64,000 bases of DNA from Streptomyces candidus. GTDB taxonomy: Bacteria > Actinomycetota > Actinomycetes > Streptomycetales > Streptomycetaceae. A program made the translations under genes and the position numbers. Of the stretch, positions 526 through 746 are shown in pieces. Location: positions 248,001 through 312,000 of the forward strand of contig NZ_JACHEM010000003.1 of assembly GCF_014207445.1 (NCBI RefSeq), read 5' to 3'. Position 1 is the stretch's first letter; every line of letters begins with the position of its first letter. The notes beneath the pieces were generated by a model. That model was not told the origin of the DNA. It made no database searches and saw nothing but the letters and a program-made list of their open reading frames with translations.

Positions 526-584
526 GTCCGTACTCCTGGGGTGTCGGGGAGCGCCCGCGGGTCACCGGGTCCGGAAACGACAGA

Positions 585-612
585 GCGCCCCGGGCCTGTC
601 GGCCCGGGGCGC
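585..612 (-). terminator. 12-bp hairpin, probable attenuator of chorismate mutase
   Basis: Bases 585-596 and 601-612 form a perfect 12-bp GC stem with a four-base loop. On the minus strand it begins 22 nt after the stop of the leader ORF and ends 59 nt before the chorismate mutase start. It is followed by a weak pyrimidine run (TCTGTCGTTTCC). A terminator between a promoter with leader peptide and its gene implies attenuation; that reading is inference. Confidence 0.7.
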
Positions 613-634
613 CTGGGAAGTCGCTTGTCAGTTG

Positions 635-709
635 CTACAAGCAGCACGACCGTGGCAGCCGGACGGGCCGGATGCCATAGGTAAAGACGGAGGTCTGGTG
701 CTTGCGCAT
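635..709 (-). CDS. Leader peptide (24 aa) before chorismate mutase
   Basis: A short ORF of 24 codons plus TAG, starting with ATG only six bases after a GATACT -10 box, so its mRNA would start at or next to the A of ATG (leaderless). The centre reads Val-Phe-Thr-Tyr-Gly with codons TTT and TAT, both rare in Streptomyces; the end is Ser-Cys-Cys-Leu. Phe and Tyr are the end products of the chorismate mutase branch, so slow decoding at these codons could sense them. The Cys-Cys end is an alternative sensor. Codons 14-16 contain CGGCCCG, complementary to CGGGCCG in the 5' arm and loop of the terminator, so an alternative fold is possible. Too short for normal gene callers. Confidence 0.6.
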   Translation of the reverse strand: MRKHQTSVFTYGIRPVRLPRSCCL

Positions 710-715
710 GGCGCC

Positions 716-746
716 AGTATCGCCCCACGCACGCGTGGCGCGTCAA
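716..746 (-). promoter_or_regulatory. Promoter of the chorismate mutase leader, with a palindrome in the spacer
   Basis: On the minus strand TTGACG (746-741) and GATACT (721-716) are separated by 19 bp. Inside the spacer lies the perfect inverted repeat CCACGC-AC-GCGTGG (725-738), well placed for a repressor to block polymerase. The two boxes match the housekeeping (HrdB) consensus; the spacer is slightly long. Confidence 0.6.

Follow-up and report, generated by a model that had tools for sequence, protein, structure and literature searches.

The minus-strand chorismate mutase gene in the 64,000-nucleotide stretch of Streptomyces candidus DNA analysed here (the window) is preceded by a conserved leader which we take, with a probability of roughly 0.85, to be a ribosome-mediated transcription attenuator that senses the charging of Phe- and Tyr-tRNA and sets the expression of this stand-alone enzyme. 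Chorismate mutase stands at the branch point where chorismate is directed to phenylalanine and tyrosine, and the gene would probably be turned on only under shortage of one of these two amino acids. The conserved open reading frame (ORF), its codons, its stop position, the RNA helices and their mutual exclusivity are computed results, whereas we infer the leaderless start, the stalling, the termination, the amino-acid signal and the starvation response (Table 1).

Table 1. Features of the chorismate mutase leader and gene (positions in the window)
Feature	Position	Strand	Basis
Promoter, TTGACG (746-741) and GATACT (721-716), spacer 19 nt	716..746	minus	read from sequence
Leader ORF, 24 codons, MRKHQTSVFTYGIRPVRLPRSCCL and stop (709-635)	635..709	minus	ORF reading; conserved in 178 loci
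Helix H1, anti-antiterminator, CUAUGGC (680-674) with GCCACGG (656-650), inner CCGG/CCGG	650..680	minus	arm-swap, between-family comparison
Helix H2, apical part of the antiterminator, GCUUG (642-638) with CAAGC (627-623)	623..642	minus	covariation, arm-swap
Antiterminator, GUCCGG-C-UGCC (664-654) with terminator 5' arm (about 613-601), enclosing H2	601..664	minus	folding, arm-swap
Terminator-like hairpin (613-584), 13 pairs, loop GACA, tail TCTGTCGTTTCC	584..613	minus	sequence, arm-swap z -15
Shine-Dalgarno-like AGGAG of the chorismate mutase gene (537-533)	533..537	minus	read directly from sequence
Chorismate mutase gene, monofunctional AroQ type, 105 aa	208..525	minus	profile matches

A conserved leader in front of the chorismate mutase gene

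The gene product was identified as chorismate mutase by profile search (PF01817, E 2.8e-7; NF005894, E 5.8e-36). Elsewhere in the genome, a 603-aa open frame contains a second chorismate mutase type II domain (G000:C1:120957-121193, L201; PF01817, E 3.8e-21). Because the enzyme makes prephenate, the precursor of phenylalanine and tyrosine, the codons of the leader match the products of the pathway: its Phe-Thr-Tyr-Gly is encoded by TTT ACC TAT GGC, with TTT at 685-683, TAT at 679-677 and the stop codon TAG at 637-635. Both aromatic codons are rare, as the initial annotation had stated; in the 23 likely coding ORFs of the window, TTT makes up 8 of 275 Phe codons (2.9%) and TAT 6 of 230 Tyr codons (2.6%). 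The other parts that it had described, namely a promoter, a 24-codon ORF beginning six bases after the -10 box, a Cys-Cys-Leu end and a hairpin 22 nt past the stop, are likewise all present in the sequence. The hairpin consists of 12 perfect pairs and one G.U pair, the distance of 22 nt being that to the perfect part. The guaA gene, whose product has the domains of a GMP synthase, lies divergently on the plus strand (841-2418), so that the hairpin cannot terminate any neighbouring gene.

Since the -10 box ends only six bases before the leader ATG at position 709, the leader transcript is probably leaderless. The arrangement recurs in relatives: in 72 of 76 Streptomyces loci, 5-7 bases separate the end of an ATACT box from the start codon, and the promoter spacer measures 17-18 nt in 50 of the 52 Streptomyces loci with a detectable -35 box (17 nt in 42 of them). 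The window spacer has 19 nt, compared with 17 nt in most relatives.

Among the genome contigs that carry the enzyme, a scan found 80 Streptomyces-type loci, or 81 including the window locus, and the same leader was parsed automatically in 76 of these. Of the five unparsed loci, three begin with GTG, another has TTTATC, and the fifth (L001) is clipped by the contig end. A covariance model (R1) matched the element in 217 of 298 Streptomycetaceae genomes, with all 17 genera counted being represented. When 20 family genomes without a match were checked, 16 were found to contain no NF005894 chorismate mutase above the cut-off, and element and gene therefore tend to disappear together. In another match-free genome (G259) a contig edge falls at the gene and cuts the leader off, two more (G044 and G059) have a diverged FSYG leader (MSSFGVTRSFSYGTG.. 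and MSSFDVTRSFSYGTG..), and in G070 the chorismate mutase gene is present with no recognisable leader. The sequence TTTACCTATGG is present once in 7.4 Mb of the host genome, and no similar leader was found before its class II DAHP synthase or prephenate dehydratase genes. Comparison with the Rfam 15 families gave no covariance-model match up to E 1.

Related aromatic leaders (FFYGYR, FYYGTG, FSYGHR and FYGDR) precede the chorismate mutase gene in other families of the class. The short ORFs found there upstream of the enzyme, right behind a -10-like box, are MLANRRFFYGYGPGS, MLRSRRFGYGFPAG, MSTSARRFSYGHRIVPAG, MRQAAFRFSYGFRN, MSDRRSYFYYGTGSPAAVGRA, MTRSAFFFYGSGRVR, MSTQRFYGHRIPVPARV, MTSAATRFFYGYRPPVAV, MLDKRRFFYGYRSAVPVV and ..FYGDRARSPL. 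We defined a strict leader rule, requiring an ORF of 9-36 codons, F-(x)-Y-G/P and a correctly placed -10 box; it was satisfied by 22 of 38 upstream regions outside the Streptomycetaceae and by 0 of 2,280 dinucleotide shuffles. This result and the matches within the family show that the element is more than a chance arrangement. The family holding MLDKRRFFYGYR is probably that of the mycobacteria. Four loci of probable mycobacteria (L233, L234, L237 and L239) have GTG-started RRFFYGYR(P/S)AVPV leaders before chorismate mutase, an H1 of 12-13 bp that spans the YGYR codons, and a T-rich tail behind a GAGCCCCG...CGGGGCUC hairpin. In family f20 (L242, L246, L247, L251, L253 and L266), the leader ..FYG(D/G)RARSPL is accompanied by an H1-like helix (UGGGGACCG/CGGUCCCCG); no clear matching terminator was found in this family, and its output may differ.

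Mutually exclusive helices in the leader RNA

In the proposed mechanism, transcription would start at or beside the ATG, and a 70S ribosome would initiate on the leaderless transcript. With ample Phe and Tyr, a ribosome that has reached the stop codon would cover H2 together with the 3' portion of segment 2, which the antiterminator needs, the GC-rich terminator would form, and transcription would stop before the gene. When either amino acid is short, the ribosome would wait at TTT or TAT and cover the 5' arm of H1, leaving segment 2 free to pair with the 5' arm of the terminator; in the resulting long antiterminator H2 would form the tip, and polymerase would enter the gene. If the ribosome is absent, H1 would form and termination would be favoured in most relatives.

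The 5' arm of H1 consists of the Tyr-Gly codons. In its family form, CUAUGGC pairs with GCCAUGG around CCGG/CCGG, and the window helix contains one A-C mismatch. Other families have different complementary sequences at this position (CUACGGGUACCG/CGGUGCCCGUGG, AUGGCUACCGG/CCGGUAGCCGU, UGGGGACCG/CGGUCCCCG and AUGGCUA/UAGCCAU). H2, which overlaps the region of the leader stop codon, covaries strongly (GCUUG/CAAGC, GUCUG/CAGAC, GUUC-GUGUG/CACAC-GAAC, GCCUG/CAGGC and CGUCG-CGUGCG/CGCACG-CGACG). H1 and the core of the antiterminator are nearly invariant inside the family and too poor in variation for column covariation to inform; the case for covariation therefore rests on H2, the terminator and the comparison between families, and to the latter we added an arm-swap test, in which the 3' halves were exchanged between sequences.

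Native antiterminators were more stable than swapped ones (mean -27.7 versus -25.7 kcal/mol; z -5.6, 0/5000 permutations), and the same test returned 2/2000 for H2, 7/2000 for H1 and 0/2000 for the terminator (z -15). Two wrong pairings, which served as negative controls, went in the opposite direction. The short pairing of segment 2 with the terminator, taken alone, was not significant by arm-swap (198/2000), and for the window alone the antiterminator segment does not clearly exceed shuffles in stability (z -0.64). Across the aligned relatives, then, the Phe and Tyr codons are conserved, and the alternative helices are kept according to the arm-swap test while their sequences change between families.

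For a ribosome modelled with Tyr in its A site, we folded the RNA that it leaves exposed, down to where the terminator 5' arm ends. The predicted structure is a single long hairpin with interruptions, capped by H2, in which leader RNA pairs with at least 56% (mean 74%) of the terminator 5' arm in each of the 53 nonredundant sequences. The initial annotation had noted that CGGCCCG in codons 14-16 can pair with CGGGCCG of the 5' arm. This complementarity exists, but the 7-bp helix was rejected as the whole antiterminator, which is longer and partly different: the short helix would lie mostly under the Tyr-waiting ribosome and its loop sequence differs in relatives, whereas the longer hairpin fits all 53 sequences.

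Using a footprint-constrained partition function, we obtained for each ribosome position the mean pairing between leader RNA and the terminator 5' arm. It was 0.65 when the A site held the first Phe codon, 0.82 for TTT, 0.82 for ACC, 0.73 for TAT and 0.64 for GGC, and fell to 0.00 at the stop, a value due in good part to the assumed ribosome footprint. In the state without a ribosome the mean pairing was 0.17, and H1 formed at 0.79. For the window's own sequence the model without a ribosome favours the antiterminator (0.92), which together with the A-C mismatch in H1 may make this strain leakier.

The components of an attenuator are thus found together: a short leader ORF with codons for the amino acids of the pathway, conserved across families; a terminator hairpin between leader and gene; and, in the computed structures, a mutually exclusive antiterminator that a waiting ribosome would free. 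The same leader could also act through Rho-dependent termination or polarity, with leader translation shielding the RNA and the hairpin serving as a 3'-end stabiliser. The weak U-tract after the hairpin would suit such an output, as would one family without a clear terminator matched to the antiterminator. We nevertheless consider it unlikely, because the hairpin is strong and GC-rich, lies at a nearly constant distance after the stop and shows complementary changes among relatives, and because the antiterminator is built from the hairpin's own 5' arm.

Leader codons, stop position and peptide tail

F-T-Y-G or a close variant is conserved in the 178 parsed loci, and the Streptomyces consensus of the leader is M-(L/R)-x-x-x-T-F-x-F-T-Y-G-x-R-P-x-G-C-H-G-R-A-A-stop. 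At 176 of these loci Phe is encoded by TTT, at 175 Tyr is encoded by TAT, and an extra aromatic residue two codons upstream (F-x-F-x-Y-G) is present in 150. As TAT-GGC doubles as the 5' arm of H1, the conserved bases are by themselves no proof of selection on the peptide; between families, TTT/TTC and TAT/TAC are both used while Phe and Tyr persist. The stop codon follows 45 nt after TTT in 150 of the 178 loci, and this conservation of codons and stop suggests that the leader is translated. Conserved codons, probable leaderless start, stop position, terminator and arm-swap results together support the Phe/Tyr-responsive attenuator of chorismate mutase that the initial annotation had postulated. 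In two leaders (L176 and L186) the motif is FWFGYG and FWFGHG, encoded by TTC and TAC/CAC; L186 has His in place of Tyr, and the 3' arm of H1 becomes CCGUGG in step.

We think it quite unlikely that the element is an ancient, class-wide attenuator of Actinobacteria in which the conserved (F)x(F/Y)YG nascent peptide itself adds arrest, so that tRNA charging is read together with a peptide-specific signal. Very unlikely, too, is an arrest peptide proper, in which nascent F-x-F-T-Y-G would stall the ribosome upon sensing a small molecule, such as an aromatic metabolite or an antibiotic, and not uncharged tRNA. In its favour, the Gly behind Tyr is retained even in distant families; however, the conservation of the YG codons is accounted for by their role as the 5' arm of H1, the residues flanking the motif vary, and it is Phe and Tyr, both products of the pathway, that recur.

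Compared with the consensus, the window leader has one inserted base (CGGCCCGtCCGG), which changes its tail to VRLPRSCCL. The same kind of +1 shift, again in the second half of the leader, is seen in four other loci (L046, L056, L095 and L141), where the stop lies 54 nt after TTT and not 45. A second inserted T, found only in the window, yields a TAG 48 nt after TTT, near the ancestral place of the stop. The RNA has been kept, the tail peptide lost and the stop restored, which is the signature expected if the final position of the ribosome matters and the tail sequence does not. The tolerance of C-terminal frameshifts and the extreme nucleotide conservation in Streptomyces would also be compatible with a conserved non-regulatory feature, that is, a structured 5' UTR or a small RNA with an incidental ORF, but this is highly improbable given that the aromatic codons and the place of the stop persist across families whose codon identity and helices differ. 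Attenuation by cysteine, with the ribosome waiting at the Cys-Cys codons near the leader end, had been offered in the initial annotation and would agree with the window peptide and with the Cys-rich leaders proposed in mycobacteria (PMC4633059), but we reject it with hardly any reservation: the Cys-Cys-Leu end is the product of a lineage-specific frameshift, Cys-Cys occurs at only 6 of 178 loci (a +1-frameshifted tail being present at five of these), the consensus of the tail is GCHGRAA or GRHGSS, the conserved Cys run of the mycobacterial leaders is absent, and the gene serves aromatic rather than sulfur metabolism.

Relation to known attenuators

Attenuation by Phe leaders is already known from pheL-pheA and aroR-aroF, whereas the chorismate mutase element in Actinobacteria appears to be undescribed. 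A survey from 2005 reported that the phenylalanine and tyrosine genes of Actinobacteria have no RNA structures in front of them (PMC1262725), and none of the eight leader peptides listed for S. lividans belongs to chorismate mutase (PMC8079986). Our literature search, to which most subscription journals were out of reach, found no account of a chorismate mutase leader in Actinobacteria. The element is notable for the depth of its conservation. A conserved attenuator in several families of the class would, if true, fill in the missing Phe/Tyr control, and would be relevant to the supply of aromatic precursors for Streptomyces natural products.

The E. coli pheL leader has a Shine-Dalgarno start, whereas the window leader comes from an actinomycete, is probably leaderless and has Phe and Tyr codons in F-x-F-T-Y-G with no Phe run. 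The pheL-pheA attenuator (Zurawski et al. 1978, as cited in PMC11802643) resembles the proposed one in its Phe-rich leader peptide, its terminator/antiterminator switch and its control of chorismate mutase activity. Its target, however, is a bifunctional chorismate mutase-prephenate dehydratase and not a monofunctional AroQ; the window leader lacks the Phe-codon run before a bifunctional pheA that marks the pheL family, and no sequence relation between the two leaders was seen. The aroR-aroF attenuator of the actinobacterium C. glutamicum (Neshat et al. 2014, as described in PMC11802643 and PMC4046766) also serves aromatic pathway control and has a Phe-Tyr-Phe leader. It controls DAHP synthase and answers Phe but not Tyr, whereas the window element precedes chorismate mutase and in this departs from the aroR pattern.

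In Streptomyces, trpL-trpE, leuL-leuS and ilvL likewise have leaderless short leaders, regulatory codons and GC-rich terminators (PMC1262725, PMC8079986), but they serve other amino acids and genes. Some chorismate mutase leaders carry Trp beside Phe (FWFTYG in L173, L175, L179 and L189), and these few strains might read the supply of Trp as well.
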